From contig NC_018227.2 of assembly GCF_000304355.2 (NCBI RefSeq), positions 1,426,001 through 1,490,000 on the forward strand: a DNA stretch of 64,000 nucleotides, in the 5' to 3' direction. The stretch comes from Methanoculleus bourgensis MS2 (GTDB lineage Archaea > Halobacteriota > Methanomicrobia > Methanomicrobiales > Methanoculleaceae). The notes beneath the pieces were generated by a model. It was given only the letters and a program-made list of their open reading frames with translations. It had not been told where the DNA came from and made no database searches. Both the position numbers and the translations under genes were made by a program. Numbering within the stretch: the first letter of the stretch is position 1; each line of letters begins with the position of its first letter. Positions 1 through 14,619 of this stretch are shown piece by piece.

Positions 1-1
1 C

Positions 2-259
2 GTCCTCTGGAACGTCCTCTACGCGATGGGGATCTGCCCGAACGTGGAGACGGTGCGGATGGAGCATACCCGCAGGTTCCCGGATATCGACGCAGCAGTT
101 GCCGAGTATGGGAAGCAGTACAGGGTCAGGACCCCTGCACAGGAGAGAATGCTCAGGGATTACCTCGCCGGTATGCTCTCGGAGAACGGCGACGACCTGG
201 TGCTCTCCGGCATGACGACGCGGGTGAAGATCTGGTGGGAGGTGGACGGGTGCCGGTGA
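2..259 (+). CDS. SAM-dependent methyltransferase, C-terminal part only
   Basis: The reading frame is open from base 2, so the gene begins before the window. The 85 visible residues start VLWNVLYAMGICPNV, which resembles the distal part of class I methyltransferases, where a hydrophobic strand is followed by a short G-I-x-P-N segment. The protein ends with an amphipathic helix and WWEV. The SAM-binding glycine motif would lie upstream and cannot be seen. The substrate is unknown. The gene is 71 bases upstream of the CooC-like ATPase, so co-transcription is possible. Confidence 0.55.
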   Translation, partial: VLWNVLYAMGICPNVETVRMEHTRRFPDIDAAVAEYGKQYRVRTPAQERMLRDYLAGMLSENGDDLVLSGMTTRVKIWWEVDGCR

Positions 260-330
260 GAGAGGGCGCCCGCCGATCCGGGTACAGGGTGTTGAGTGGT
301 TGTAGAAGAGTATGAGGATGTGAACATAGT

Positions 331-1104
331 ATGAAGATTACCATCTGTGGCAAGGGAGGCAGCGGGAAGAGCAGCGTTGCCGCGCTGCTTGCCCGCGAGT
401 ATGCACGGAGGAACCGTGCGGTACTGGTCGTCGACACCGACGAATCGAACCTCGGGCTGCACCGTCTTCTCGGGACGGACGCCCCTCCTGACCTTATGGA
501 TTACTTCGGGGGCAAGAGAGCAGTGACAGAGAAGATCATGGCTGCGATGCCGGACCCGTCGTCCGTGGACCTGGTGGGGGAGACCTGGACCATCGACGCG
601 ATTCCCGGCGACTATGTCGCACGGGAAAACGGGGTCAGGCTCGTTGCCATTGGGAAGATCCATGACGCCGGGGAGGGGTGCGCCTGCCCGATGGGGATGC
701 TCGCCCGCCAGTTCCTCGACCACCTCGACCTCGGGGATGACGATGTCGTCATCGCCGATACGGAGGCCGGGATCGAACACTTCGGCCGGGGTGTAGACCA
801 GGGGGCCGACGTGGTCCTCATGGTCGTGGACCCGTCGTTTGAGTCGCTCCGGCTCGCGGAGAAGGTCGGGGATATGGCAGCACGGATCGGCGTTCCGCTC
901 TACTACATCTTAAACAGGGTCGACCTCTTCTCGGCCGCCCGGTTGCGCCGGAGCATGCCCGAATCCTCGCGGATCGCCTGCGAGATCCCGCCGGACCCCG
1001 CGATCCTTGCCGCGGGCCTCGACGGCCGGGCGCTGGAACAGAGCCATCCCGGGATCGTCACGCTCGCGGATACGCTGGACGCCACCTGGAGGGGAGGAGC
1101 ATGA
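331..1104 (+). CDS. CooC/MinD-like P-loop ATPase
   Basis: A 257-residue deviant-Walker ATPase of the ParA/MinD/CooC group. The N-terminus has GKGGSGKSS (residues 8-16), then a switch aspartate in VVDTDESNLG (about 34-43), and DDVVIADTEAGIEHFGRG near 138-155. The C-A-C-P motif near residue 114 resembles the paired cysteines CooC uses for metal or for dimerisation. CooC proteins drive nickel insertion into carbon monoxide dehydrogenase, so a metallocentre-maturation role is plausible, but no CODH gene is nearby. The stop overlaps the flavin reductase start as ATGA, implying translational coupling. Confidence 0.85.
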   Translation: MKITICGKGGSGKSSVAALLAREYARRNRAVLVVDTDESNLGLHRLLGTDAPPDLMDYFGGKRAVTEKIMAAMPDPSSVDLVGETWTIDAIPGDYVARENGVRLVAIGKIHDAGEGCACPMGMLARQFLDHLDLGDDDVVIADTEAGIEHFGRGVDQGADVVLMVVDPSFESLRLAEKVGDMAARIGVPLYYILNRVDLFSAARLRRSMPESSRIACEIPPDPAILAAGLDGRALEQSHPGIVTLADTLDATWRGGA

Positions 1105-1685
1105 TTCTCAGGCCCGGGCAGCGGGAGCAGGTACTCCCGCTCCCGGTTACGCTCATCTCGACGGTCTCTGACGACGGCACGAAAAACGTCGCCCCCTGGT
1201 CGAACATAACCCCGATCCTCAGGCCCCTGGACGAGATCGTCCTGGCATCCTGGATAAAGCGCGACACCCTCGAAAACATCCGCGCCACAGGCGAGTTTGT
1301 CGTGAACATCCCCCCGGCATCGATGGTCGAGGAGGTCATGATATGCGCGCGGAACTACCCGCCTGAGGTCGACGAGTTTGCGGAGGCGGGTCTTGCACCC
1401 CGGCCGTCGGTGAAGGTCCGCCCTCCCGGCGTCGGCGGGTGCCTGGCCTGGATGGAGTGCGTGCTCGCCGAGGAGATCGCGCGGGAGAACTACTCCCTCG
1501 TCATCGGAACGGTGGTCCACCTCGAGACCGACGATCGCTGCTTCAACGATGCCGGCGAGATGGACTTCGAGCGGGCAGAGCCACTCTCGGTTATGCTCGG
1601 GCGGGAGGGGATGTGGTTCACCCGGCCCGTCAGGTCGGGACGGTTTGCCCGCTACGCGGAGATGGCCGCCGGCAGGAAGGGTTGA
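1101..1685 (+). CDS. flavin reductase-like FMN-binding split-barrel protein
   Basis: A 194-residue protein of the flavin reductase-like family. It starts with the typical split-barrel strand pattern PVTLISTVSDDGTKNVAPWS, followed by a strand-rich core and the central segment ENIRATGEFVVNIPP. Such proteins bind FMN and, in methanogens, are often small flavoproteins in electron transfer or oxygen defence. The ATG lies inside the stop of the CooC-like ATPase (4-base overlap), so the two are probably made together. Its redox partner is not evident from the sequence. Confidence 0.85.
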   Translation: MILRPGQREQVLPLPVTLISTVSDDGTKNVAPWSNITPILRPLDEIVLASWIKRDTLENIRATGEFVVNIPPASMVEEVMICARNYPPEVDEFAEAGLAPRPSVKVRPPGVGGCLAWMECVLAEEIARENYSLVIGTVVHLETDDRCFNDAGEMDFERAEPLSVMLGREGMWFTRPVRSGRFARYAEMAAGRKG

Positions 1686-1692
1686 CGGCAGG

Positions 1693-2040
1693 TCAGAGCA
1701 TCCCGCACCCGGAGAGGTGATAGAGCCGGCCGACCCGTTCAGCCGCCTCCTCTGATTCCGCCTCCCGGATGCGTTCGAGGATTGTCTCGATATCCTCTTC
1801 AGGCATGCACCCGAGGTCTTCCCGACCGGAGAGGATCTGGTCGGTGAGGTAGCTCCAGTCCTCGTCAGAGAGCCGGCTGACCCGTTCCCTGAAGTCTTCC
1901 TCGTCTGCCGCGATATGGTTTGAGACCGGCGGGAGGATCGAGTGGAACTCGTGCCCGGACTCCGGGCAGATGATCCCCTCGTATTCAGGCGCCAGTTTCC
2001 GTAATATCGCAAAGTCCTTCTCGTCAAATTCGCGTGCCAT
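1693..2040 (-). CDS. hypothetical helical protein
   Basis: A 115-residue acidic protein I do not recognise. It is predicted mostly helical, with two stretches rich in Glu/Asp and Arg (around 48-60 and 80-100), and contains three cysteines (one in IICPESGHEFH, one in LGCMP, and one near the C-terminus in SGCGML). It is convergent with the flavin reductase gene and lies 41 bases downstream of the prenyl synthase stop on the same strand, so it may be the second gene of that operon. No membrane segment or signal peptide is visible. Confidence 0.6.
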   Translation of the reverse strand: MAREFDEKDFAILRKLAPEYEGIICPESGHEFHSILPPVSNHIAADEEDFRERVSRLSDEDWSYLTDQILSGREDLGCMPEEDIETILERIREAESEEAAERVGRLYHLSGCGML

Positions 2041-2081
2041 GGTTCACCAGGCCTCCCGGCGGCTACGGCCGGTACCTCTTC

Positions 2082-2969
2082 TCAGGAAGAGTTTGGGGCG
2101 GGACGGTATTTATCGATGCGGGGGCCGGCGATCGTGATCCCCACAATATCCCGGACCGCCTGTATGAAGGTCCTCTGCTCCCGGGGAGCGAGCAGCCGGA
2201 GCCTGGCCGCCGCACGGGCGATCTCCGCATCAAGCAGCGATGCCAGCGCCCGCCCGACCCTGTCATCTCTCGCGGAGATGCTCTGGAGGAGGAGCGCTTC
2301 GGACCCGGGGCGGCAGTCCCCGGGCACATGCAGATCTGCGATATCGTCTGCAATCTGCATCGCCTTCCCGGCAGAGAGACCAAAGTTTGCAAACGCAGTG
2401 ACGACGTTCTCGTCCGCGCCTGCCGTCATGGCGCCCCATGCTGCCGCAAGCGAAAAAAGGCACCCGGTCTTCCTGGTGATGACCGCATCGTAGAGTTCGA
2501 CCGAAGGGAGGAGCGGCTGCTCAAGCACCTCCCAGGCCACGCCCCTGGTCATGCTCTGCTGGGCCGACGCGAGCATCGTCACATACTGTGAGCCGTACGG
2601 GGCGGCGAGAGCGTAGGGGAGGGCGAGGATACCGACGGCATCGAGCACCGCCCGCCCCTCTCCCCGGGTGAGGTGGTGGGCCGGGGCTCCGCGCCGGACG
2701 ACGTCGCCGTCCAGCATATCGTCGAGGATGAGGCTTGCGGCGTGAGCGAACTCGAGGGCACAGGCAAGGTCGAGCGCCCGGGGAGTGGGGACCGTCATCC
2801 GGGTGAGGGCGGTGTGGACACGGAGGAGAAGCCCGGCCCGCATCCGCTTCCCCTTCAGGAGGAGCGGGAGGACGCCGGGGTCGACTGCCTCCCCATCGCC
2901 CGCCATCTCCTCGATCCGCCGGTTGACCGTGGGCCTGACCTGCTCCAGGTACTCGCGAAACGGCATCAT
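2082..2969 (-). CDS. polyprenyl diphosphate synthase
   Basis: A 295-residue trans-prenyltransferase that condenses isopentenyl diphosphate with an allylic diphosphate to build archaeal lipid or quinone-type side chains. The first [13 protein letters not shown] motif is DDMLD in LILDDMLDGD, followed by two arginines, and the second is DDIAD in QIADDIADLH; GKRMRAGL matches the IPP-binding region. I chose the ATG at 2969 because the longer open frame reaches back into the divergent promoter and its added residues look non-coding. Product chain length cannot be read; the residues before the first motif (LEFAHAASLI) are of a short-to-medium chain type. Confidence 0.88.
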   Translation of the reverse strand: MMPFREYLEQVRPTVNRRIEEMAGDGEAVDPGVLPLLLKGKRMRAGLLLRVHTALTRMTVPTPRALDLACALEFAHAASLILDDMLDGDVVRRGAPAHHLTRGEGRAVLDAVGILALPYALAAPYGSQYVTMLASAQQSMTRGVAWEVLEQPLLPSVELYDAVITRKTGCLFSLAAAWGAMTAGADENVVTAFANFGLSAGKAMQIADDIADLHVPGDCRPGSEALLLQSISARDDRVGRALASLLDAEIARAAARLRLLAPREQRTFIQAVRDIVGITIAGPRIDKYRPAPNSS

Positions 2970-3086
2970 GACGCACTCACAGGATCGCCGGTAAGCTCGC
3001 CCGGGTGGTAAAAAGGTGTGGGTCGATCCGGCGCTGCAGGTATATTCATTATTGTTGCGGGATTCAGGAGTCCCAGGCACGGGAAG

Positions 3087-4037
3087 ATGATGAGGCAGGA
3101 GGGGGTGGCGATCGAGAGAGAACCGGTGTATTTAGAGCCGGGTGACGTGTTCAGGGATTGGCTCGCGGGTGTCCTCGCCGACCGGCTGCCGGAGCATGAC
3201 GGCGACGTCCGGGTCTACCGGATAGAGCCCGCGTCGCACGTCGTCTGCCGCTACGAGTTTGTCGGCACGGGGTTCAGCGTCATCGGCAAATTCTTCGGGG
3301 CGCCGCAGGGTGCAAACACCCGCTACGACCCCGATGCGGCGATGAAGAACGAGTACGACCGGCTCAGGCGCGCGTCCGGCTGGATCCCGGTTCCCGGCGC
3401 TCTTGCGACGAACAGCCGGTTTCACTCGGTCCTTGTGACCGGGTACATCCCTGGCCCGACCATACGGGAACTCCTCGCGGCGGGGGCATCTCTCTATGAC
3501 CCCCTGACCGGCGTCGCGCACCTCCTCCGCCGGCTCCACGACAACACACGGACCTCCTGTAACCGGGAGCGTGAGTTTGCCTACTTTCATAAGGTGCTCG
3601 ACCAGAATGCGCTCCCTGCACCCCTGCGGGAGCGGTTCAACCGCCTGCTCGGGGCGTGGTGGCACAGTACCCGGATCAGCCGGGACGAAGGATGTATGGT
3701 CCACGGCGACGCCACGCCCGCAAACTACCTCTATGACAGCGGGGTCTGGGCGATAGACTTCGAAGGCGCCCGGGACTGTGCCCATCCCATCCGCGACCCC
3801 GGAATCCTCGCGGCGGAGCTCAAGGCGTCGGTCGGGAACACCAGGGCCGAAGACTACATCGGCCACCTCCTCTGGCACTACAGCCGGGGCGAGGCGGAGT
3901 TCCGCTGCCATACCGCCGATCTGCCGTTCTTCATGTCGCTCGGCTACCTCAGGATCGCCCGGCTGCCCTGGCGGGCTGCGGAACGCGACTGGCTGCTCCA
4001 GGAGGCGGAGGCATGTCTCGCCGCAGGCCCGGGGTAG
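3087..4037 (+). CDS. APH-fold small-molecule kinase
   Basis: A protein of about 316 residues in the aminoglycoside phosphotransferase/choline kinase fold. Kinase motifs are clear: the Brenner-type catalytic loop VHGDATPANYLYD with the catalytic Asp, and the metal-binding WAIDFEGARD just after it. The frame stays open to an ATG at 3018, but a TATA-like tatattcatt at about 3040 would place transcription start near 3070, so ATG 3087 fits better. The HAD phosphatase start overlaps its 3' end by 25 bases, suggesting a kinase/phosphatase pair. The substrate is unknown; drug resistance is not implied. Confidence 0.8.
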   Translation: MMRQEGVAIEREPVYLEPGDVFRDWLAGVLADRLPEHDGDVRVYRIEPASHVVCRYEFVGTGFSVIGKFFGAPQGANTRYDPDAAMKNEYDRLRRASGWIPVPGALATNSRFHSVLVTGYIPGPTIRELLAAGASLYDPLTGVAHLLRRLHDNTRTSCNREREFAYFHKVLDQNALPAPLRERFNRLLGAWWHSTRISRDEGCMVHGDATPANYLYDSGVWAIDFEGARDCAHPIRDPGILAAELKASVGNTRAEDYIGHLLWHYSRGEAEFRCHTADLPFFMSLGYLRIARLPWRAAERDWLLQEAEACLAAGPG

Positions 4038-4675
4038 CGGGGGTCCTCTTCGACTGCTACGGGACGCTCATTGATATCCTGACCGATGAGCACGATATCA
4101 GGACCTACCGGTGCCTCTCCCGGTGGCTTCTCTACCAGGGGGTCAGGATCGCGCCCGAGTCCTTGCGGGACTGCTACCTCCGGCGGGTACGGGAGGCGGC
4201 CGACCGGACCGGGGAGCGCTACCCGGAGGTGCGGGTCGAGGAGGTCTTCGCCGGCATCTGCGCCGAACACGGTATGTGGGAGGCTGATTTCGACCGGCTC
4301 GGGGTCGAGGCGGCACGGGCGTTCCGGGCCGCATCTCTCAGGCGGCTCGGGGTTATCGGGAAGAGCCGGCGGCTGCTTGACCTCTTCGGTGCGAAGAAAC
4401 TCGGCGTCGTCTCGAACGGACAGCGAGTCTTCTCAGAGCGGGAGATGCGGGCGCTTAACCTCTACGACCGGTTTGAGGTTGTCATCTTCTCATCAGACCT
4501 CGGTTACAAAAAGCCTGATCCGAGGATATACACGGCTGCCCTCACGCGGATGGGACTTCGCCCCCCCGACGTCCTCTTCATCGGGGACACCTGCGAAGAC
4601 GACGTCCTTGCGCCCCGGAGACTCGGGATGCAGGCGCTGCATGTACGGGAGGCATGGCAGCGCTACGGCGCCTGA
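4013..4675 (+). CDS. HAD-superfamily hydrolase
   Basis: A 220-residue haloacid dehalogenase-type phosphatase. Motif I is FDCYGTL with the nucleophile and acid aspartate position occupied by Asp and Tyr (D-x-Y-G-T), a pattern shared with some haloacid dehalogenases and small phosphatases. Motif II is VVSNGQ, motif III the Lys in YKKPDPRIY, and motif IV the GDTCEDD stretch. An all-alpha cap of C1 type sits between motifs I and II. It overlaps the upstream kinase gene and is probably co-translated with it. The substrate is not predictable. Confidence 0.87.
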   Translation: MSRRRPGVAGVLFDCYGTLIDILTDEHDIRTYRCLSRWLLYQGVRIAPESLRDCYLRRVREAADRTGERYPEVRVEEVFAGICAEHGMWEADFDRLGVEAARAFRAASLRRLGVIGKSRRLLDLFGAKKLGVVSNGQRVFSEREMRALNLYDRFEVVIFSSDLGYKKPDPRIYTAALTRMGLRPPDVLFIGDTCEDDVLAPRRLGMQALHVREAWQRYGA

Positions 4676-4687
4676 GCAGCGGCCCCG

Positions 4688-4700
4688 ATGGGTATATGGT
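4688..4700 (+). promoter_or_regulatory. TATA-like promoter before the RuvC-only gene
   Basis: The sequence gggtatatgg lies about 30 bases before ATG 4728 and after the HAD stop. At the usual archaeal spacing of 24-27 bases it would start a nearly leaderless transcript, so the RuvC-like gene may have its own promoter rather than being a dead fragment. Confidence 0.45.
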
Positions 4701-4727
4701 GCTCCGGTCACCAGTCTTTTCCTGTAC

Positions 4728-5321
4728 ATGGGGGCCATGAAGAGGGGGATGCCACACTCCGCGGATACTCCGCTGCCCGACGATTGGATCGGCGTTGACC
4801 TCAACACCACCGGGCACGTCGCCGTCGTCGCCCACCCGGCGAGCGGCGGGGTGGTGATGCTCGGCGACCTGCCGGAGCACCGGGAGAGCGGGAGCGCCGG
4901 GAGGGGCGGGTCTGCCCGGAAACCCCTGGACCACGAACGCGCCAACCAGAATCAGAAGATCGCAAAAGAGATCGTGAAGATGGCCCGGCAGCTCTGGTGC
5001 GGCATCAAACTCGAGGACCTCACAGGCGCCGGGTTTGCGGGCCGGAAGAAGCGGGGCACCCCCCTCTCGTTCTCCCGGCGTGAGGGGTCGTTCTACCACC
5101 TCCAGAAACTGATCGAGGCCCGGGCGCAGGACGCCGGGGTCCGGATCGTCTACGTGGACCCGGCGTTCACGTCCAGGTGCTGCAGCCGGTGCGGTGAGCC
5201 GGGTATCCGCAAGGGCAAGGAGTTTTTCTGCCCGCAGTGCGGGAACGCCGTTCATGCCGACGTGAACGCGGCGTTCAACATAGCAGCAGCACCGCCGGGA
5301 ACCGGGGCGGGGGTTTCATGA
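4728..5321 (+). CDS. stand-alone RuvC-domain protein related to TnpB (IS605 OrfB)
   Basis: A protein of at most 197 residues that contains only the nuclease half of TnpB. Numbered from the ATG at 4749, it has RuvC-I Asp17 in WIGVDLN, RuvC-II Glu89 in IKLEDLTG, a zinc ribbon C145-x2-C148 and C161-x2-C164, and RuvC-III Asp171 in HADVNAAFNIA. All three catalytic acids are intact, and the Glu-to-Asp distance (82) matches full TnpB. The N-terminal guide-binding half of about 180 residues is absent, with only 52 bases between it and the HAD stop. Starts at 4728, 4737 or 4749 are possible. It may be a transposon remnant or a repurposed nuclease; no right-end element or guide RNA was recognised downstream. 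Confidence 0.75.
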   Translation: MGAMKRGMPHSADTPLPDDWIGVDLNTTGHVAVVAHPASGGVVMLGDLPEHRESGSAGRGGSARKPLDHERANQNQKIAKEIVKMARQLWCGIKLEDLTGAGFAGRKKRGTPLSFSRREGSFYHLQKLIEARAQDAGVRIVYVDPAFTSRCCSRCGEPGIRKGKEFFCPQCGNAVHADVNAAFNIAAAPPGTGAGVS

Positions 5322-5344
5322 TACCTGAGTGCACATAGTCCCGC

Positions 5345-6088
5345 GTGACGAACGAACGGCGGTGGTTGATCACCTTCGGGGCGGGGCTTGTCATCCTCTC
5401 GATCGCGCTCTACGGCCTGCATTACCTGATCTTCCATGATATCCACCACATCGGGATCTATACGCTCGCTGACATCGCGTTCCTCCCGCTTGAGGTCCTC
5501 CTGGTGACGCTCGTCTTTCACCAGGTGCTCGAGTCCCGCGACCGGAAGCAGAGGATGGATAAACTGAACATGGTCATCGGGACGTTCTTCTCCGCCATCG
5601 GAACGCAACTCCTGACTTACATCTCCAACAACGATCCGAACCTGGACGAGATCCGGCCGCAACTGCTGGTCAACGATACCTGGACCGATGAGACGTTCCA
5701 GCGTGTGGAAGGAAGGCTGAAGCGGCATCCCTGTCGCATCAGGATAGAGGATGTCGACCTGGAGGCCGTCAAACGGTTCCTCGGGTCCCGTGAGGAGTTC
5801 CTCCTTCGGTTGCTGGAAAACCCCGTACTCCTCGAACACGAGGCGTTCACCGAACTCCTCAGGGCGGTATTTCACTTCAACGAAGAACTGCAGCGCCGGC
5901 CCGGCTTCTCCGGCCTGCCCGGGACCGATACGGCTCACCTCGCCCACGACCTCGAACGGATCTACGGCCTCCTGATCCGGGAGTGGCTGGACTACATGCA
6001 CTACCTGCAGGAGAACTATCCTTATCTCTTCTCGTTTGCGATGCGGACAAACCCCTTCGACGAGACGGCGACGGCGATCGTGGGGTGA
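5345..6088 (+). CDS. two-TM membrane protein of unknown function
   Basis: A 247-residue protein with a GTG start 23 bases after the RuvC-like gene. The N-terminus holds two hydrophobic segments (about 8-32 and 38-60), followed by a long, mostly helical cytoplasmic region with charged residues and a Trp/Tyr-rich C-terminal part (REWLDYMHYLQENYPYLF). No catalytic motif is seen. The family looks like a small conserved group of membrane-anchored helical proteins. The short gap suggests co-transcription with the RuvC-like gene, but no function links them directly. Confidence 0.7.
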   Translation: MTNERRWLITFGAGLVILSIALYGLHYLIFHDIHHIGIYTLADIAFLPLEVLLVTLVFHQVLESRDRKQRMDKLNMVIGTFFSAIGTQLLTYISNNDPNLDEIRPQLLVNDTWTDETFQRVEGRLKRHPCRIRIEDVDLEAVKRFLGSREEFLLRLLENPVLLEHEAFTELLRAVFHFNEELQRRPGFSGLPGTDTAHLAHDLERIYGLLIREWLDYMHYLQENYPYLFSFAMRTNPFDETATAIVG

Positions 6089-6124
6089 GGGGAGCCCCCG
6101 ACCCCAAAAGACCGCCGTGTCCGG

Positions 6125-6290
6125 GGTGTGATGAACTATCGCCACCTGCACCGGCCCCCTCACGCGGAAGCGCGCGGAATGGCGCGAAGGGGCGTCGCCT
6201 ACATCCGTTACCGAACTTCGCGAACTTCGCGGCTTCGCGTGAGACTCTATTGTCTCCTTATACTGAAAACTCACGCATCACGGGCCACAC
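6125..6290. repeat. dispersed CGCGAAG-type repeat
   Basis: The gap between the convergent genes at 6088 and 6312 holds repeated CGCGAA heptamer-like units in both orientations (cacgcggaagcgcgcgg, gcgcgaagg, then cttcgcgaacttcgcgg and cttcgcgtgag), able to form a long hairpin. It ends with ATACTGAAAACTCACGC (6260-6276), found identically at 27285-27301. It encodes no protein. The repeat may end transcription from both sides. Confidence 0.65.
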
Positions 6291-6311
6291 AATAAGATGA
6301 AAAATAACCCA

Positions 6312-7136
6312 CTACGCAAGGTTCGCCCGGATATGCCGCACCGTCTCGGGATACTGCTGCCTGAGGGCATCCCTCTCCAGGTTCTCCCTGACGATCCACC
6401 TGACATCCTGGTCGTCGAGGGCTGCGAGTTGACGGAGGTACTCAAACCCTATCCCGGGCAGGGCCGCAACGACCCGGCCCAGGGTGTACCCGAGCGCCTT
6501 CCTGAGGGCTACAAATGCCTCGGACTGGCGCTCCCCCGCCGTGTAGACCCGGATCAGGATCTTGCGGTGCAACCTGAGCGCCGCCTCGGCCAGTTCCGGC
6601 TCCGCCTGGAGGTCGGACTCCGCGATACCGGCGGCCGCCGCCCGCATGGGGAGCCACGACCCGGACTCAACCCACCCCTCCAGCCCGGCGACGGTCTCCT
6701 CCTGCCTGGCGACGAGGAGGTCGCAGACCCCGAGCGCCACTGCCTCCCTCACCCGCCGGCGGGGGTCGAGGGAGGCATCCTGCAGCTGGGCGAGCGCCAT
6801 CCCGGTGAATGCGGGTGCGACGGCCCCGATCGCCGCGATACCGAGAACCCCGCAGAGGGGGAGGAACTCATGCGGGTCGCCTGCCGGTGCATCCTCAGGG
6901 GAGACGCAGGCGAGTTCGGTACAGAGGCTCCAGAGAGCCCTGCAATCATTCTCATCGGCAGCCGCATACTCCCTGACGGCATCGGCAAACGCTGCGGCGA
7001 GGTCACGGTTGGCGCGGGGGCCCGGCAGGTTGCTCTCCGCAACCAGACAGGCTATCAGGTCTTCGGCGTTCCCGGTCGCAAGGAACCCCGAGAGTTGCCG
7101 GGCGACCTCCCGGATGTAGGTCTTTCTGCAGGTCAT
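6312..7136 (-). CDS. HEAT-repeat-like protein
   Basis: A 274-residue, all-helical protein built from about seven irregular HEAT-like helix pairs (for example RRRVREAVALGVCDLLVARQ and RKALGYTLGRVVAALP). It resembles archaeal HEAT/DNA-alkylation-repeat-like scaffolds but lacks residues marking a glycosylase. It lies 54 bases downstream of a small GTPase on the same strand, so the two probably form an operon in which the HEAT protein could be an effector or regulator of the GTPase. That pairing is inference. Confidence 0.7.
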   Translation of the reverse strand: MTCRKTYIREVARQLSGFLATGNAEDLIACLVAESNLPGPRANRDLAAAFADAVREYAAADENDCRALWSLCTELACVSPEDAPAGDPHEFLPLCGVLGIAAIGAVAPAFTGMALAQLQDASLDPRRRVREAVALGVCDLLVARQEETVAGLEGWVESGSWLPMRAAAAGIAESDLQAEPELAEAALRLHRKILIRVYTAGERQSEAFVALRKALGYTLGRVVAALPGIGFEYLRQLAALDDQDVRWIVRENLERDALRQQYPETVRHIRANLA

Positions 7137-7190
7137 CGTTCTGTATCCAGATCATCAGCTAGAGCGACCCGGAACCAAAAATAATGATCG

Positions 7191-7676
7191 CTACCCGGCA
7201 ACCAGGGTGGCGACGAAGGCATCCAGGGCTGCATAAACGTTCTCGCCGTTCCGCGCAGAGATGGGATACACCGTCTCCCCCGGCAAATCCCGGCTGATAG
7301 CCCCGGGAGCGGCGCCCGGGCAGTCGCACTTGTTCGCCATGAACGCAAGCGGCACCTCGAGTTCCTTCAGGCGGTCGTAGAGGTGCCGCGTCATCGCATC
7401 CACTCCCCTGGTGGCATCCACAACGATGATTGCACCGTCCATCCCCCGCGCGAGGATCTCCCTGACGAACTCGAACCGCTCCTGGCCCGGGGTCCCGAAG
7501 AGGTAGACCGCCCGGTCCCTCACCTGCAGTCTGCCGAAATCGAAGGCGACGGTCGTGGCGCCCTCTTTCGAGGTAGCCTCGATATTGCGGCTCCCGGAGT
7601 CGAGCGCCTGGATGAAACTGGACTTGCCTGCATTGAACGAACCGAAAACGACGATCTTGAGCCTGCCTTCTGCCAT
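7191..7676 (-). CDS. small Ras/Arf-like GTPase
   Basis: A 161-residue GTPase of the COG2229-type group. The P-loop is GSFNAGKSS, switch I threonine lies in EGATTVAFDFG, switch II is FGTPGQERF (DTPGQ variant with Gly replaced normally and the Asp position taken by Gly), the base-recognition motif is ANKCD, and SAR is present near the C-terminus. Start at ATG 7676 was taken because residues upstream of MAEGRLKIVV look non-coding. In bacteria this family works with Roadblock proteins in polarity or signalling modules; here it is paired with a HEAT-repeat protein instead. Confidence 0.88.
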   Translation of the reverse strand: MAEGRLKIVVFGSFNAGKSSFIQALDSGSRNIEATSKEGATTVAFDFGRLQVRDRAVYLFGTPGQERFEFVREILARGMDGAIIVVDATRGVDAMTRHLYDRLKELEVPLAFMANKCDCPGAAPGAISRDLPGETVYPISARNGENVYAALDAFVATLVAG

Positions 7677-7855
7677 CAGCCTTGTATCGGCCGCTGAATG
7701 TTTTAGCGTTTCGATATCCCCGTGCCTTCGGAGAGCAGGAGGCATACCCGGACACCCCGGAGATGCGTTCTTTCCAGGTGGAAAGGAAAAGGACGCCCCC
7801 CGCCTCGCCGGCCACTCTCAAGAGTGATATACCCGGCAGGCCCAAGGTTACCGGT

Positions 7856-8197
7856 ATGGGGTCGGAAGGGACGGATACCGTCGTGCAGGAGATCATGGCC
7901 GCCCTGGATGACGCATTCCTCGCGGAGAAGTACGCAAGGCTCCAGGCATCTGCTCTCGAGGGGCAGCAGTATACCCTGGCCGCGACATTCAGGATGGTCC
8001 AGGATATGGAGATCGAGAGCGCCATCGCCGGCATCCTCGCCAGGTTCGGTTTTGCTTACTACACGGTGGACGATGATGCCGAACTCTGGATCTCGGACGA
8101 ATACGGGCTGATGGTCTTCCTCTCCTTCACGTTCCCGGGCGGGCGCTACTACAACTACCGTATCGTCGCGTTCGATGTCGTCGGTGAGGACGAGTGA
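7856..8197 (+). CDS. hypothetical protein
   Basis: A 113-residue acidic protein of unknown function. The first half is helical (VVQEIMAALDDAFLAEKYAR) and the second is strand-rich with many aromatic residues (FAYYTVDDDAELW, GGRYYNYRIVAF). I chose ATG 7856 because gtgatatacc about 30 bases upstream looks like a TATA box that would give a leaderless mRNA; the longer frame would run through that promoter. It is divergent from the GTPase gene and ends before the PBS-lyase-like HEAT gene. Confidence 0.65.
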   Translation: MGSEGTDTVVQEIMAALDDAFLAEKYARLQASALEGQQYTLAATFRMVQDMEIESAIAGILARFGFAYYTVDDDAELWISDEYGLMVFLSFTFPGGRYYNYRIVAFDVVGEDE

Positions 8198-8305
8198 ACC
8201 CCTGCGGCCGGCGATGCAGCGATAAGGATGGGGAGATGCAGGAGGGTCTCCGCGCCAACACTATATACCACAAACGCCATCTGGTCTGCAGAAGAACCTG
8301 GTGGC

Positions 8306-8842
8306 ATGGGTATGGAACGCTCGGTAAAGCGCCTCATGGAAGACAGAGAGAAGCGACGGGAGGAGAACATCAAGAAATACATCGAGCAGCTCGAGCACGA
8401 GAGCACTCCCTACCGCTTACGGGCTGCCGAGGCCCTGGGGGGATGCGCCGATCCGCGGGCGGTCGAACCGCTGATCGCCGCCCTGCACGACCCGGAGAAC
8501 GAGGTCCGCTGGGTCGCGGCACAGGCGCTCGGGAAACTCCATGACGCACGGGCAGTGGACCCCCTCCTCCCCCTCCTCACCGACCCGGACCGCTGGGCGC
8601 GACGCGGCGCCGCCTGGGCACTCGGTGAGATCGGAGACCCCCGCGCGGTCGAACCGCTCCTCCCCCTCCTTGAGGACAGGAAGAAGGACGTCAGGGTGGC
8701 TGCTGCCGATGCGCTCGGGAAACTCCACGATGCCCGGTCGGCCGGCGCCCTCTCCGGCGCGCTCGAGAGCGAAGAAGAGCCCGAAGTCAGGACGGTGATC
8801 CGGCGTGCGCTCCGCGAGATCACCGGTGAGATAGGGTTTTGA
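8306..8842 (+). CDS. PBS-lyase-type HEAT-repeat protein
   Basis: A 178-residue protein of tandem HEAT repeats of the phycobilisome-lyase type. After a charged N-terminal helix (about 1-38) come four to five repeats with the consensus DPRAVEPLLPLL and RWVAAQALGKLHDARAVDPLL. Such proteins are scaffolds for protein-protein contacts and are common in methanogens; this one has no extra catalytic domain. The ATG at 8306 is preceded by GGTGG and by the TATA-like actatatacc near 8263, which argues against the longer frame that begins at 8228. Confidence 0.85.
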   Translation: MGMERSVKRLMEDREKRREENIKKYIEQLEHESTPYRLRAAEALGGCADPRAVEPLIAALHDPENEVRWVAAQALGKLHDARAVDPLLPLLTDPDRWARRGAAWALGEIGDPRAVEPLLPLLEDRKKDVRVAAADALGKLHDARSAGALSGALESEEEPEVRTVIRRALREITGEIGF

Positions 8843-8856
8843 CCGGGAGGATGCGA

Positions 8857-9696
8857 TCACCCGTACTCCAGGTGCAGCCCGACGCCAGTCTCCCGGACGT
8901 CCGCTACTTTTGAGAGCGTTATCTTTGCCGCAAGACCGGTGCAGTGGCAGGGGTGGAGGGCCGCCGGCTGTACCTCCGAGAAATAGTCAAGGACTCCCTG
9001 CATCTGCTCCGGTTGAGGTTTTTCGAGGTGGAACCCGCCGATGACGTCGGCAACCCGGTCTTCACCGCAGACCTCTCGCGCCTGCTCGACGATCGAGCAG
9101 ATCCCTGCATGGGAGCAACCGGTCACGATGACAAGCCCTTCCGGGGTCCTGCAGGCGAGCGCGGTGTCGTCGACGATGGCATCGTCCCTGATGCCGTCGG
9201 GCGTGTAGATGTAGCCGCCCGGAGGCACCTGCTCAAACTCGAACCGCCGTTCGATCTCGCCGAGGAAGACCAGGTTCTCGGTCAGCCAGAGGGGTGCGGC
9301 GGTGAGGAGAACTTTCCCATGCCTGAAGAGTTCCTCGACCGAGAGGTGACACCCGATCTCTCCGATACCGTCGCGGCTCCGGGTGAGGAAGGCGTCGGGG
9401 TGGGCGATGAATGTAGGCTCGATGCGTTCCCGGCCTTCGATGATCGCCTCGGTGTGGAGCCGGATGAGGGCGTCAAGGCCCCAGGTATGGTCAAGGTGGC
9501 CGTGCGAGAGGACGATGTCCTCGACGCGGAGGAGGTCGATCCCCATCTTCCGGGCGTTGGCGATGAGGATATCCGAGTAGCCGGCATCGAAGAGGACGCG
9601 GGTCCCGCCGTCCTCGAGATAGAGCGAGAGCCCTGGTTCCGCGAGGAAGTAGCGGTCGGTGAGGGCGACGTTATCCACGAGGACCGTCAACCTCAT
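8857..9696 (-). CDS. metallo-beta-lactamase-fold hydrolase (COG1237 type)
   Basis: A 279-residue MBL-fold protein. The zinc-binding signature is SHGHLDHTWG, followed by a later metal His in TGCSHAGI and the distal GGFHLEKP and HPCHCTG. The spacing and the GCSH motif match COG1237 enzymes, which include relatives of the methanopterin-pathway protein MJ0301. A role in pterin or cofactor synthesis is therefore possible but not shown. It is convergent with the HEAT gene and lies alone, with about 210 bases of non-coding sequence before the antiporter genes. Confidence 0.85.
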   Translation of the reverse strand: MRLTVLVDNVALTDRYFLAEPGLSLYLEDGGTRVLFDAGYSDILIANARKMGIDLLRVEDIVLSHGHLDHTWGLDALIRLHTEAIIEGRERIEPTFIAHPDAFLTRSRDGIGEIGCHLSVEELFRHGKVLLTAAPLWLTENLVFLGEIERRFEFEQVPPGGYIYTPDGIRDDAIVDDTALACRTPEGLVIVTGCSHAGICSIVEQAREVCGEDRVADVIGGFHLEKPQPEQMQGVLDYFSEVQPAALHPCHCTGLAAKITLSKVADVRETGVGLHLEYG

Positions 9697-9910
9697 GCAC
9701 GGCGCTCCCCACGGAGTGCGACTGTGGCCGTGACCGTGTCCATGCAGATACTGGGAACGTAGCGGTTAAGAAGGTTTCCCGGCGGGGTGATGCTCGCCGC
9801 GGGCTTCTGACCGCTCATTTCCCCCTGCCCGGTTCCCGTTCACGTCAACCCCCACCCCGCGAGGCGATAGCAGCGAGGATCCGGGAGTGGCTCCGGAGGG
9901 AAGCATCCGG

Positions 9911-11053
9911 TTAGTGGATGAACGGGTGCGTACTCCCCGCTCTATGGCGGGACCGTAGCCGTACCCAGTGCTGCTTTAAGATGGGGCTGTACTTCGCGGC
10001 GAACGAGCCGGCAATGGATGTTGCGACGACGATACCGGCGATGGTGCTCGAGGCGGCCGCCGAGCCGTAGAGCGCTGCAAGGATGATGGAGAACTCTCCG
10101 CGGGCGATGGTGTTAGACCAGATCTCAATACCAGCCGCGGTTGAGCCGTGGATCTGCCGCCCGATGAGCACGCCGGAGAGGAGTTTGCTCAAGGCGGCAA
10201 GCAGGCTGACCGCGGCGATGGCGACGAGGCCGACCTCTCCCGAGAACTCGACGGATATCCCGAAGAAGACGAAGAACAGCACCAGGAAGACGTCCTTGAA
10301 GGGGCGGGCCTGCCGTTCCAGTGCGGCCGGGGCGGTGGTGGAGAGCGCGGCCCCGAGTGCGATGACGGTGAGGGTATCAGGGATATCGATGGCCCGGGCA
10401 ACAAACGCGGCGGCGACCACCATGGTGAAGGTGATGAGGACCGGGAGTTCGTCGTCCCGGTCAAGTGCCCGACGAATCGCCCTCTTCCCCCATCGGCACG
10501 CCAGGAATAAGACCGCCGCCACCACGGCAAACCTGGCAATCATGCCGACCGGGATGGTGAAGCCCGAGTGCAGGATGACGATGAGGAGGACAAGGACGAT
10601 GTCCTCAAAGACCATCATCCAGACAACCGTCTCCGACTCGCGGAAGACCATCTTCTTGTTCTCAAGGATCGACGCAAACGCGAGGACTGAACTGCTGATA
10701 TAGAACGCTGACGCTACGACGACCGCATCGGGAAGCGGAAATCCAAGCGCCAGTGCCGCGACAAACCCGATCGCCAGGTTGACGTTCAGGTCGATGAGCC
10801 CGACTTTGAGGAAAGCCGACCGCTTCGCGAGGAGCCGGTCGGGCTTGAGTCCGAGCCCGACGTAGAAGAGCAGGAAGACGAGGCCAAGGTCGACGAAGAA
10901 GTCAGAGATCGGCGACGGGGTCACGAGGCCAAGCCCGCTCTTCCCGAGAGCGAGTCCGGCGATGATGTAGAACGGAACCGGCGGCAGTGAGAGCCGGCGG
11001 GAGACCAGGGCGAGGACCAGGCAGACCCCGAGTGCAACGGCGATCCCCTCCAT
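9911..11053 (-). CDS. CPA2-type cation/proton antiporter (KhtU-like)
   Basis: A 380-residue integral membrane protein with about 12 hydrophobic segments and the CPA2 (Kef/Nap) pattern, including FLLFYVGLGLKP early in the protein, FEDIVLVLLIVI in the middle, and WSNTIARGEFSIILA near the C-terminus. The acidic pair expected in the ion-binding region appears as E-D in the FEDI segment. No C-terminal RCK domain is fused; it is supplied by the gene just upstream, whose stop overlaps this start as TAATG. The arrangement equals KhtT-KhtU, a K+(or NH4+)/H+ antiporter system. Confidence 0.87.
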   Translation of the reverse strand: MEGIAVALGVCLVLALVSRRLSLPPVPFYIIAGLALGKSGLGLVTPSPISDFFVDLGLVFLLFYVGLGLKPDRLLAKRSAFLKVGLIDLNVNLAIGFVAALALGFPLPDAVVVASAFYISSSVLAFASILENKKMVFRESETVVWMMVFEDIVLVLLIVILHSGFTIPVGMIARFAVVAAVLFLACRWGKRAIRRALDRDDELPVLITFTMVVAAAFVARAIDIPDTLTVIALGAALSTTAPAALERQARPFKDVFLVLFFVFFGISVEFSGEVGLVAIAAVSLLAALSKLLSGVLIGRQIHGSTAAGIEIWSNTIARGEFSIILAALYGSAAASSTIAGIVVATSIAGSFAAKYSPILKQHWVRLRSRHRAGSTHPFIH

Positions 11054-11523
11054 TATCCGCGGACCGCCTCCTCGAATGCCGCGAGTACACCGCTCTCGCC
11101 GACGGCGACGGTCAGGTCGCCTTCCTGGAGGACCATCTCAGGAGGGGGGCTCGCGGTATTCTTCCCGCCCCGGGAGATTGCGACGACGATGACGCCGACC
11201 GGCAGGTCTCCGATGCGTCTCCCTGCGAGGCGTTTCCCGACGATGCAGGTGCGGATGCCTATGTGCAGGTCAGTGAGCGTGGAGAAGGTGATCTCTACCC
11301 CTTCTTTCGCCGGCTTCACCGGAGCGCCTGAGAGGATGCTCCCGAGCCTCCGGGCCTCCGCCCCCGAGAGATCGGCGACGCAGGGCACCGGAAAGTCCTT
11401 TGCAAGCAGGTAGACCTGCACGTTTCCCGATACCCTCCAGACGACAGCGATGGTGTCTCCAGCCTCGGATTCGAATTCGTATGTGGTTCCGATACCGGGA
11501 TGGTCCCGGGAGCGAAGAGGCAT
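11053..11523 (-). CDS. TrkA-C (RCK_C) regulatory subunit, KhtT-like
   Basis: A 156-residue soluble protein. Residues about 1-75 form a small mixed domain (IGTTYEFESEAGDTIAVVWR) and residues about 80-156 are a TrkA-C domain with IGKRLAGRRIGDLPVGVIVVAI-like strands, here CIVGKRLAGRRIGDL, and the closing LQEGDLTVAVGESGVL. In Bacillus, KhtT gates the antiporter KhtU through its C-terminal domain. The stop is shared with the antiporter start, so the two subunits are translationally coupled. The upstream 100 bases are AT-rich and probably contain the promoter. Confidence 0.82.
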   Translation of the reverse strand: MPLRSRDHPGIGTTYEFESEAGDTIAVVWRVSGNVQVYLLAKDFPVPCVADLSGAEARRLGSILSGAPVKPAKEGVEITFSTLTDLHIGIRTCIVGKRLAGRRIGDLPVGVIVVAISRGGKNTASPPPEMVLQEGDLTVAVGESGVLAAFEEAVRG

Positions 11524-11934
11524 GAGTAATTATTCATTAAGATCAGTTTAAATAAGTATCGTTTTTTACATTTACGTTTATATTGCAGAAACAGATTTTT
11601 TCAGACAAAATATAAGACATAATCCAATTATTCAGCTAGGTTTGAGGTTATTATGATCAGAGTCAAACGGGTCGCGCCGCCCCACTGCCACAGGTGATTG
11701 GACCTGCGGGATTCTCCGGGACATCGGTTCTGATAACCGGACCCCTTCCTGCCTGCCCAACCCTCTTCGGTGCTGCTGAGTCAGGTTGGTGCCCCTGATG
11801 CAGCTGCGCCCGCGATTGACCCCCCCATGACCCGACACTCACTTCCGGCAGCCAGATAGTGTACGGACCTTATCCACGATGGCGCCGGAGGAAAGAAGTC
11901 ACCGCCCGCCAAACCAACCTTTTGGAGTGGTATC
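11524..11934. other. gene-free region with AT-rich promoters and several hairpins
   Basis: Bases 11524-11640 are AT-rich and carry TATA-like elements for the minus-strand antiporter operon (tttaaataag near 11548) and for the plus strand (aaaatataag near 11608). Bases 11640-11880 are GC-rich and encode no convincing protein, but hold successive inverted repeats: GTTTGA/TCAAAC, CAGGT/ACCTG, CGGTT/AACCG and TCAGG/CCTGA. This could be a structured RNA or the long leader of the gene at 11935. I compared it mentally with SRP RNA, RNase P RNA and tRNA and found no match. Confidence 0.4.
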
Positions 11935-12327
11935 ATGACGGAAGATGTATGCAGTGTAAGTTTTTCCCCCGGTACGCCGGAGGAGTTTGAGTCGGTCGGC
12001 CTCGCGGCGGGGGTGCGACTCCCGCTCGATCGCCTGAAGGAGCTGCAGGAGCGCCACGGGTTTGAGGTCATTCTCTACTTCGACGAAGACCTCGCCAGAA
12101 ACTCGACACTTGATGCGGATTATGCAGATTTCCGGATCGTCCCGGTGCAGGCCCGGCCGTTCATGCCGCTGGCGGTGTTCCTGCGGGTGGTTGCGGAACA
12201 GGAGGAGATCGCCCGCCGGATGCAGGAAGAGACCCCGGTGATCGAAGTCCTGGAGACCGGGATGATCGACCGCTGCTCTGGGTGCGTCCACTGCGTGAAG
12301 CAGTACATAAAGGGGCTGCTCCTGTAA
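11935..12327 (+). CDS. hypothetical protein with C-terminal CxxCxxC
   Basis: A 130-residue protein I do not recognise. The first 100 residues are a mixed fold with two long helices (DRLKELQERHGF and LAVFLRVVAEQEEIARRMQEE). The C-terminus carries CSGCVHC, which could bind a metal or an Fe-S cluster. A GGAG stretch lies 8-11 bases before the ATG. It stands alone, convergent with the 2H phosphoesterase gene, and follows the hairpin-rich region, which may be its leader. Confidence 0.65.
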   Translation: MTEDVCSVSFSPGTPEEFESVGLAAGVRLPLDRLKELQERHGFEVILYFDEDLARNSTLDADYADFRIVPVQARPFMPLAVFLRVVAEQEEIARRMQEETPVIEVLETGMIDRCSGCVHCVKQYIKGLLL

Positions 12328-12336
12328 CGCGCACGC

Positions 12337-12999
12337 CTAACGGCGGACTGCCCTGCCATGGCCGGCAATCTGGCCAGCCCCGAGGTCGAACCCGGCAATG
12401 ATGCCCCGGCAGGTGCAGTGGTTGCCCAGGCGGCAGATAGCAGCCTTCGTCGCCTCGAACCGGACAGGGAAGTCGATCCCGGGGATTAACTCTGGAAGGT
12501 CGCCGAACCCGAGCGTGATATGCGGGGAGTAGCGCTCATACGCAGAGGTCTTCGGGAACCGGAGGAGGCAGTCGATGGAGTCTGCGGACGCTTCACCCGC
12601 GAACATCTCCGGACCGGCCGGTGAGGCCGTGTATGACTTTACAGCGTTCATGACGGTTTTGTGGAAGAGCTGAAGGATCTCCGGCCGCGGGATGTGAAAG
12701 ACAGAGACGGTCTCTCCCGTCCTCACCCGGTGCTTTGCGATAGTATCGATAGTCAGGGCCATAGGGGAACACCGCCGGGCGATCCGGTCAACTTTTGCGG
12801 TTATCTCCGGGATATCCTCACGCCTCGCCGGAAACATTGCAACCGAGATGTGCGGGAGGCAGTCTCCTCTCTCAAGGCGTATCCCTCCACCCGGGGTACC
12901 GGCAAGCAGGATCCGGTTCGCGCCGATCGCCATGTCCATAATCGGTCCGGGCGGCAGGATGACAACATCGATGGCAACCGTATCGGGAAACTCATGCAT
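12337..12999 (-). CDS. 2H phosphoesterase-like protein
   Basis: A protein of about 220 residues with the two H-x-S/T motifs of the 2H phosphoesterase (2'-5' RNA ligase-like) fold: PHISVAMFP near residue 50 and SPHITLGFG near residue 158. This group hydrolyses cyclic phosphodiesters of RNA or nucleotides; the substrate here is unknown. I use ATG 12999 because the codons before MHEFPDTVAIDVV are not conserved-looking. It ends 9 bases after the convergent CxxCxxC gene. Confidence 0.75.
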   Translation of the reverse strand: MHEFPDTVAIDVVILPPGPIMDMAIGANRILLAGTPGGGIRLERGDCLPHISVAMFPARREDIPEITAKVDRIARRCSPMALTIDTIAKHRVRTGETVSVFHIPRPEILQLFHKTVMNAVKSYTASPAGPEMFAGEASADSIDCLLRFPKTSAYERYSPHITLGFGDLPELIPGIDFPVRFEATKAAICRLGNHCTCRGIIAGFDLGAGQIAGHGRAVRR

Positions 13000-13060
13000 A
13001 GAGGGGTGATCAGCGGATAGGGTAGAAAAGTGTTTCCCGCCGATCCCCACCGGCCTTCGC

Positions 13061-13264
13061 TCACCACTTCACGCCGAAGATTGGTTCATCTTCGACGAGG
13101 TTTGTGATCCTCCGGACACTCGCCTCCATCGGGACTTCCTCTCCTCTGTTCAGGCTCTGCCTCAGTTGTTCAAGGCCTGCAGCCACCGAATCATCCTTCG
13201 ACTGGACACCGCTTACCGTCACCCGGAACGTCAGCGTCACCAGCCACTGGGTCGTCGTCTTCAT
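13061..13264 (-). CDS. small hypothetical protein
   Basis: A 67-residue protein of unknown function. It starts with a hydrophobic strand pair (QWLVTLTFRVTVSGV) followed by a helix rich in Gln/Glu and a C-terminal strand ending FGVKW, suggesting a small alpha/beta domain. Support for being real: GGGGAG sits 4 bases before the ATG and a TATA-like ggtatattcgg lies 25-30 bases further upstream. No paralogue is seen in the window. Confidence 0.6.
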   Translation of the reverse strand: MKTTTQWLVTLTFRVTVSGVQSKDDSVAAGLEQLRQSLNRGEEVPMEASVRRITNLVEDEPIFGVKW

Positions 13265-13642
13265 CTTCTCCCCTCATACGATGGACCGAATATACCACCG
13301 GGAGACATAAAGGCAGCTCACGACCGGGACAATTCTCCCCGGCTGTTCTCCGGTCGGCCGGGTCCACCACAGCTTGCGGTCCCAGTCCTCCGGACACCGC
13401 CCTCCCTCCCGCAGGCAGAAGGTCTTGGAGAAGAGGCAGGGTTCAGCTGAAAATGGCGATCGTCCGGTCGAAAGCCAGGTCTGTATCGGGATGACAGGTA
13501 CTGTTGCCGGAAGGGAGGGGAACGGTCATCGGGATGAAAGCACCGGCCGGTCGTTTGGACTGGGCCTGGAGGCTTGCAGCAGAAAACATGACAGGTATAT
13601 TTTTATACACCACAGGATATACAGGCCCGGCCGGTGAGAGAT

Positions 13643-13819
13643 ATGCAGGAAATCAGGACATTCAGGTGCAAGGACCTCGGCCTTGCATGCGAATTTGAGG
13701 AGAAGGCTGAAGACGAGAACGAACTCATGAAGCGGGTTGAGGGACACGTTCAGACCGCTCACCAGATGAACCCGGAACTACCGGAAGTGCAGGAGAAACT
13801 GCGCGAGGCTGTGAAGTGA
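13643..13819 (+). CDS. DUF1059-type small protein
   Basis: A 58-residue protein of the DUF1059 family, recognised by the N-terminal FRCKDLGLACEF, the acidic middle and the helix KRVEGHVQTAHQM with a conserved His pair. DUF1059 proteins are small, often stress-linked and of unknown mechanism. A GTG at 13634 is in frame, but GGTGAG there serves better as the ribosome site for ATG 13643. TATA-like ggtatatttttatac lies near 13590. A run of seven T follows the stop at 13840-13846. Confidence 0.85.
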   Translation: MQEIRTFRCKDLGLACEFEEKAEDENELMKRVEGHVQTAHQMNPELPEVQEKLREAVK

Positions 13820-13835
13820 GGGGTAAATCCACCAG

Positions 13836-13848
13836 GACCTTTTTTTGG
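13836..13848 (+). terminator. T-run terminator after the DUF1059 gene
   Basis: Seven consecutive T (13840-13846) follow the stop codon by about 20 bases in otherwise GC-rich sequence. Archaeal RNA polymerase stops at such runs without a hairpin. Confidence 0.55.
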
Positions 13849-13887
13849 GTAACCTCAACTACCCGATGATCCCAACCCATCAGTGAT

Positions 13888-14619
13888 TCATTTTGGCCCC
13901 ACGTCAGGAGCGGCGGCGGGTCGCGTCCTTCTCCTGCACTCCTCCATGCCACTGATCAGCCCGTCCCGCAGGGTGACGACCCGGCAGAAATACTCCTTAT
14001 GCCACTCTTCGTGCGAGACCATCACGATCGTCTGGTCAAGGTCCTCGTTTAAACGAGCGAAGAGGTCGAGGATGCTTCTTGAAGTCTGGCTGTCCAGGTT
14101 CGCGCAGGGCTCGTCGGCGAGCAGGATGCTCGGGTTGTTCACGAGCGCCCGGGCGATTGCCACCCGCTGCTGTTCACCGCCCGAGAGTTCGCTCTGCCGG
14201 TGGTCCATCCGGTCGCCGAGACCCACCCGCTCGAGGATCTCGGCGCTCCTCCTGAGGTACTCCTCCCTTCTGGCTCCCCGGACAAGCGACGTTAAGTAGA
14301 CGTTCTCCAGTGCCGTGAGTTCGCCGATAAGGGCGTAATCCTGGAAGACGTAGCCGAGCCGGTTCAGCCGGAAGAGGGTCCGCTGGTGGTCGGAGAGGGC
14401 GAGGACATCGGTCCCGTCGATCATGACACTCCCTGAGGTGGGCCGGTCGAGAAGCCCGAGGATGTGCATGAGCGTCGATTTACCACTGCCGCTCGCCCCC
14501 ATAATCCCGACAAACTCGCCCCCGGCGACCTCGAGCGAGACGCCTGCAAGGGCGCGGACCTCCACCCTGCCCATTGTGTAGACCCTGGTAAGGTTCTCTG
14601 CAACGATCACATGATTCAC
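13888..14619 (-). CDS. ABC exporter ATPase (MacB/LolD type)
   Basis: A 243-residue ATPase of the MacB/LolD/FtsE class. Walker A is GASGSGKST, the Q-loop is YVFQDYAL, the signature is LSGGEQQR, Walker B is ILLADEP, and the switch His is in MVSHEEWH. The start is GTG 14619, which overlaps the permease stop as GTGA; the longer frame to 14661 lies wholly inside the permease gene. With the permease and the CARDB-type protein upstream it forms a three-gene operon. This class works as a mechanotransmission machine or lipoprotein exporter rather than an importer. Confidence 0.93.
   Translation of the reverse strand: MNHVIVAENLTRVYTMGRVEVRALAGVSLEVAGGEFVGIMGASGSGKSTLMHILGLLDRPTSGSVMIDGTDVLALSDHQRTLFRLNRLGYVFQDYALIGELTALENVYLTSLVRGARREEYLRRSAEILERVGLGDRMDHRQSELSGGEQQRVAIARALVNNPSILLADEPCANLDSQTSRSILDLFARLNEDLDQTIVMVSHEEWHKEYFCRVVTLRDGLISGMEECRRRTRPAAAPDVGPK

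Follow-up and report, generated by a model that had tools for sequence, protein, structure and literature searches.

To our knowledge, the well-known domestications of TnpB (Cas12, TldR and Fanzor) keep RNA guidance. In TnpB itself, DNA is not the only possible substrate of the RuvC site: it can also process RNA, and it processes the protein's own mRNA into guide RNA (PMC10278001). For ISDra2 TnpB, helices alpha1 and alpha2 of the RuvC domain bind the guide RNA, and Tyr309 stacks on the first base pair of the guide-target duplex (PMC10097598). TldR is a TnpB that has been taken over for a non-transposon role, losing RuvC catalysis while keeping guide RNA and DNA binding (PMC13418256).

Here we analyze a stretch of 64,000 nucleotides from Methanoculleus bourgensis MS2 (the window; NC_018227.2), which lies within a single 2.79-Mb contig and encodes a TnpB RuvC domain as a protein of its own.

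The gene and its product

The features of the locus are as follows, in window coordinates.

4013 to 4675, forward strand: HAD-family hydrolase gene, the intact, syntenic upstream neighbour (context, outside the system)
4693 to 4716, forward strand: promoter block, a TATATGG box (4693 to 4699) and an ACCAGTC element (4710 to 4716), from an upstream DNA alignment of 14 orthologues
4728 to 5321, forward strand: RuvC-only, TnpB-derived nuclease gene, intact frame of 197 amino acids from 4728
4797 to 4799, forward strand: codon of the RuvC-I catalytic Asp24
5013 to 5015, forward strand: codon of the RuvC-II catalytic Glu96
5181 to 5240, forward strand: zinc ribbon (C4) with Cys152, Cys155, Cys168 and Cys171
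5259 to 5261, forward strand: codon of the RuvC-III catalytic Asp178, in the motif HADVNAAFN
5345 to 6088, forward strand: two-TM protein gene, starting 23 bases after the RuvC stop

Translation could start at 4728, 4737 or 4749; residue numbers used here count from 4728, and Asp24, Glu96 and Asp178 are Asp17, Glu89 and Asp171 of the preliminary description. Each of the three catalytic positions aligns in 46/46 RuvC-only proteins and 39/39 full-length relatives. The zinc ribbon has a Pfam TNB match (Cas12f1-like_TNB, E 4e-20), and the NCBIfam model guided_TnpB aligns with the window protein over profile positions 270-388 of 389, which is its C-terminal part, at a score below the family cut-off. 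The same holds for the NCBIfam models of full-length TnpB, of which the C-terminal parts alone match, all below their cut-offs, and matches in the PADLOC and PHROGs collections are mostly to TnpB/Cas12-like proteins or transposases. The spacing from the catalytic Glu to the last Asp is 82 residues in the window protein versus 83 in ISDra2 TnpB (E278 and D361; PMC10097598). Alignment and profile searches thus bear out the earlier reading of an Asp/Glu/Asp site and zinc ribbon at TnpB-like spacing with no N-terminal half: positions 4728 to 5321 encode a complete TnpB RuvC and zinc-ribbon module without the WED/REC half. The structural comparison with TnpB that had been proposed points the same way, as the AlphaFold2 model (mean pLDDT 82) combines an RNase H fold with a zinc ribbon, and the top matches in the PDB are to AsCas12f, with a TnpB at rank 13.

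As for the TATA-like promoter that had been described, the TATATGG box recurs ahead of most orthologues within the genus; the block with ACCAGTC is kept in most of these but not in the two sister-genus copies. A terminator-like inverted repeat at 4697-4713 was considered as an operator and rejected because some orthologues do not preserve its arms, and an Rfam match to BjrC80 at 5047-5173 (E 0.05, far below gathering) was set aside as chance. The short length of the gene had raised the concern that the junction with the HAD gene contains a frameshift or a gap in the sequencing, which was rejected: the HAD gene is intact, and the same HAD-RuvC junction recurs in many genomes, those of the same genus included.

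Distribution and chromosomal position

A profile search, with hits sorted by frame length, profile coverage and inspection of loci, places the RuvC-only gene in ~55 of 232 Methanomicrobiales genomes, nearly always as one copy, versus up to 4-11 copies for full-length TnpB elements with a guide-RNA scaffold. The nearest named orthologues of the window gene are from Methanoculleus and Methanomicrobiales MAGs. The start positions are bimodal: RuvC-only proteins begin ~6-30 residues before RuvC-I and full-length relatives ~130 or more. When 84,980 species genomes were scanned, not exhaustively, with two peptide patterns, RuvC-only members among the best 80 loci were confined to Methanomicrobiales.

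Within the genus, the gene lies between the HAD hydrolase gene and the gene at 6312-7136, and the order in Methanoculleus and sister genera is APH-HAD-RuvC-[TM]-G, with two sister-genus genomes carrying the RuvC-only gene at this same site. The flanking gene at 6312-7136 (reverse strand) encodes a conserved 274-aa protein without a Pfam match, which keeps its place beside the RuvC/TM locus both within the genus and in sister genera. In Methanoregulaceae there is another fixed site, where the RuvC-only gene follows two genes that we take to be dph6-like and DUF2070-like, names that come from reading the sequences rather than from a profile search. No neighbour gene of the RuvC-only loci points to a pathway. 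Given syntenic, nearly always single-copy genes in ~55 genomes, the possibility that the homologs are only scattered, frameshifted fragments is excluded.

Presence is uneven. All genomes of genus group g13 have the gene (8/8), and a full-length RuvC-only orthologue occurs in 11/35 same-genus genomes, the window included. A twelfth same-genus genome (G016) carries a copy in which an in-frame deletion takes out the catalytic Glu, and G092 has a partial copy. The gene is therefore dispensable, having been lost repeatedly in the genus and being present once without its catalytic Glu.

The neighbouring membrane protein gene

The two-TM open reading frame does begin 23 bases after the RuvC stop, as first described, but the proposed coupling of the two genes does not survive comparison across genomes. 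At 28 same-genus loci all four combinations occur (RuvC and TM, 5; RuvC only, 7; TM only, 10; neither, 6), with no association (Fisher p 0.45, trend negative). Of the 232 genomes of the order, 210 have the TM family (132/135 among good genomes) versus ~55 with the RuvC-only gene, so an operon with the membrane protein was rejected on grounds of independent loss at one locus and the near-universal presence of the TM family. A search of archaeal genomes thus confirmed that RuvC-only homologs exist but not that a membrane protein gene consistently follows them; the two-TM gene is a neighbour only, gained and lost independently. Many Methanoregulaceae have a TM homolog near the RuvC-only gene in a neighbourhood otherwise unlike that of Methanoculleus, where the two genes are convergent and not co-directional, which suggests an old neighbourhood and not an operon.

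Convergent pairs of this kind are seen at loci L047, L049, L091-L093, L096, L128, L155 and others. The two-TM family is uncharacterised, has no Pfam family above cut-off and is near-universal in Methanomicrobiales, often with two paralogues; a second copy lies at G000:C1:238866-239483.

Ancestry and constraint

In a tree of 85 RuvC domains, one branch (support 100/99) parts the 46 RuvC-only rows, all from Methanomicrobiales or MAGs of that group, from the 39 full-length rows. Since this one branch separates the two sets, a single loss of the N-terminal half is the simplest reading, and it is probable provided that the tree is rooted on the full-length side. A six-frame search for the lost half elsewhere in the genome came up empty in 17 genomes that have a RuvC-only gene and found it in 3 positive-control genomes; a split TnpB with its N-terminal half supplied in trans was rejected on this basis. 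The Methanoculleus branch is long (1.27), which is compatible with relaxed constraint in that lineage. On a concatenated APH and HAD tree of the genus, presence of the RuvC gene needs at least 4 changes, which are best read as losses because sister genera have the gene at the same site.

The Asp, Glu and Asp residues and the four cysteines are kept in 46/46 RuvC-only proteins despite pairwise identities that drop below 40%. The dN/dS comparison that had been suggested as a check gave a median pairwise value of 0.32 in the genus, at the high end of the neighbouring genes (0.12-0.31), which shows purifying selection on the gene.

Other positions that are near-invariant in full-length TnpB have been lost from the RuvC-only proteins. 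For example, the Trp aligned with window Gly120 is present in 100% of full-length and 9% of RuvC-only proteins, and the Tyr aligned with window Ala131 in 95% and 0%, respectively. By motif position rather than by structural superposition, this Tyr would be Tyr309 of ISDra2 TnpB. Helix alpha1 is in the model of a Methanoregula protein and missing from that of the window protein, so to judge by the models the window lineage has also lost this guide-RNA-binding helix.

The guide-RNA scaffold and the C-terminal peptide

In full-length relatives, tnpB carries at its 3' end a scaffold that is conserved and structured and terminates in ATGTCAG (alifold z -9.6 and -7.9 versus column shuffles). A covariance model built from this scaffold (R1) had no match in the window or in genome G000, nor at core Methanoculleus or Methanoregulaceae RuvC-only loci. 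It matched three RuvC-only loci, and none of the other 51 sources gave a significant match.

L042, 8568 to 8700, forward strand: scaffold relic in the coding sequence of the RuvC-only gene of G039 (E 7e-17)
L043, 7871 to 8006, reverse strand: scaffold relic in the coding sequence of the RuvC-only gene of G038 (E 9e-16)
L044, 7880 to 8012, reverse strand: scaffold relic in the coding sequence of the RuvC-only gene of G055 (E 4e-15)

These three are early-branching RuvC-only genes, and a genome-wide search confirmed the matches. The embedded scaffolds keep the GGGAGCACTGATACCCC core (with one change in G038) and, largely, the ATGTCAG end, which is translated as part of '..MSES..'. What comes after it is translated from the former guide and flank region and makes up a C-terminal peptide (ENLLFLLE, ENIFAILE and EHLMCMLE). 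A similar peptide, ENLLAVLE, ends ~20 Methanoregulaceae proteins whose genes have no detectable scaffold, and in the window lineage the peptide has been lost as well. As a test for live RNA function, synonymous conservation was compared over the whole scaffold region of the three genes and was not significantly elevated (66% versus 56% identical codons, p 0.16).

In a same-genus genome (G031), contigs C1, C13, C20, C42 and C46 hold several matches of 84 nt to the scaffold's 3' part, three of them at contig starts; these may be small non-autonomous elements that carry the scaffold end alone.

Possible functions

We consider it somewhat likelier than its opposite that the gene encodes a host-domesticated, guide-independent RuvC nuclease, derived from TnpB and settled in an ancestor of the Methanomicrobiales. 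The starting point would have been a chromosomally settled TnpB from one archaeal subfamily, which lost its WED/REC half once and became a host gene; the remaining RuvC and zinc-ribbon domain has kept its metal site and is under purifying selection. Its product may be a small metal-dependent endonuclease, working without a guide on DNA that is single-stranded, flapped or opened in some other way, or on RNA; since the RuvC site of TnpB acts on DNA and processes RNA, the substrate could be either. The role might lie in host nucleic-acid maintenance or accessory defence, with specificity set by substrate structure and, in most families, by a hypothetical partner that reads the C-terminal peptide of the ENLLAVLE type; the Methanoculleus lineage, window included, would later have lost both peptide and guide-RNA-binding helix. 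Because the gene has been lost repeatedly, the function is presumably beneficial but not essential. This proposal draws on the one-branch separation, the vertical synteny within families and the intact active site, together with the absence of an N-terminal half in trans and of a detectable scaffold in the window lineage. The preliminary description had likewise raised the possibility of a domesticated nuclease rather than a simple decayed transposon, and the conserved catalytic residues, synteny, dN/dS of 0.32 and one-branch tree agree with it. Counted against it are the patchy presence (11/35), the Glu deletion in G016, the partial copy in G092, a dN/dS at the high end of that of the neighbouring genes, the long branch and the lack of a neighbour that points to a pathway.

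Several of these latter features would also be expected of a functionless TnpB relic in slow neutral decay, namely the repeated losses (at least 4 changes on the genus tree), the G092 and G016 copies and the long Methanoculleus branch. We nevertheless regard decay as unlikely, given that seven catalytic and zinc residues are kept in 46/46 proteins across several families, that the promoter block is conserved and dN/dS is 0.32, and that the gene is kept in 8/8 genomes of group g13. Little more credence is due to a protein that still binds RNA, as a minimal RuvC ribonucleoprotein that uses the embedded scaffold or cuts it in its own mRNA, at least in G038, G039 and G055. The covariance matches inside three coding sequences (E 7e-17 to 4e-15), the kept GGGAGCACTGATACCCC core and largely kept ATGTCAG end, the known processing of mRNA by TnpB RuvC (PMC10278001) and the binding of guide RNA by helices alpha1 and alpha2 (PMC10097598) are consistent with this, but the scaffold cannot be detected either in the window or at any other RuvC-only locus searched, the synonymous excess is not significant, and the WED half, which binds part of the scaffold, is gone.

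It is improbable that the protein antagonises mobile TnpB by competing, as a fragment of the nuclease lobe, for guide RNA or by dimerising with the full-length protein. Origin in the same subfamily would suit such a role, as would the lack of a RuvC-only gene in five genomes with full-length subfamily members and scaffold (G040, G044, G065, G102 and G191), but these are too few for significance, perfect conservation of catalytic residues would be needless, and the residues that have been lost are those that probably contact guide RNA. That the RuvC protein forms a functional unit with the membrane protein encoded downstream, as the 23-base gap in the window and the nearby convergent homologs in many Methanoregulaceae might suggest, is very improbable in view of the independent loss of the two genes at one locus, their opposite relative orientation in another family and their unequal distribution.

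A further proposal, which we put forward tentatively and think rather less likely to hold than to fail, is that Methanomicrobiales preserve a series of graded steps between an RNA-guided nuclease and a guide-free one. The series would run from full TnpB with guide RNA, through RuvC-only genes that contain the scaffold and translate the former guide and flank as a C-terminal peptide, to RuvC-only proteins with the peptide but no scaffold and finally the bare RuvC domain of the window. Its end product would be active and guide-independent; the RNA embedded in the early forms may still control them or be cut by them.

Comparison with known systems

The closest relatives are TnpB proteins of IS200/IS605-type elements (the 'Derived' group, with an ADxN RuvC-III motif), specifically a subfamily whose full-length members occur in Methanosarcina, Methanohalophilus, Methanocalculus, Methanoliparum and viral contigs. 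The RuvC-only proteins have in common with them the D-E-D triad, CxxC-CxxC zinc ribbon, fold and ancestry, but they lack the WED/REC half, most members lack a guide-RNA scaffold, and the gene is nearly always single-copy at a fixed position rather than part of a mobile multicopy element. By structure and by profile, the RuvC/TNB lobe is best matched by Cas12f and other type V effectors, but the RuvC-only proteins have no recognition lobe, and no CRISPR-like repeat array was found in positions 1-14000 of the window. Bacterial RuvC Holliday-junction resolvases are likewise small, stand-alone nucleases with an RNase H fold (T. thermophilus RuvC, TM-score 0.44, a weak match), whereas the present proteins have an extra zinc ribbon and a clear sequence kinship to TnpB instead. 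The literature searched contained no description of a RuvC-only TnpB clade; the survey of Altae-Tran 2023 (PNAS) was outside that search and may hold an earlier mention.

The RuvC-only proteins offer natural material with which to probe what a lone TnpB RuvC domain does, and what appear to be intermediate forms, still alive, allow the loss of the guide RNA to be traced step by step. Like TldR, they would represent recruitment of TnpB to a non-transposon role, but they are its opposite in keeping the catalytic residues and losing the guide machinery. In this way, the reverse of the known domestications appears to have taken place, the targeting half and guide RNA being discarded and the cutting domain kept.
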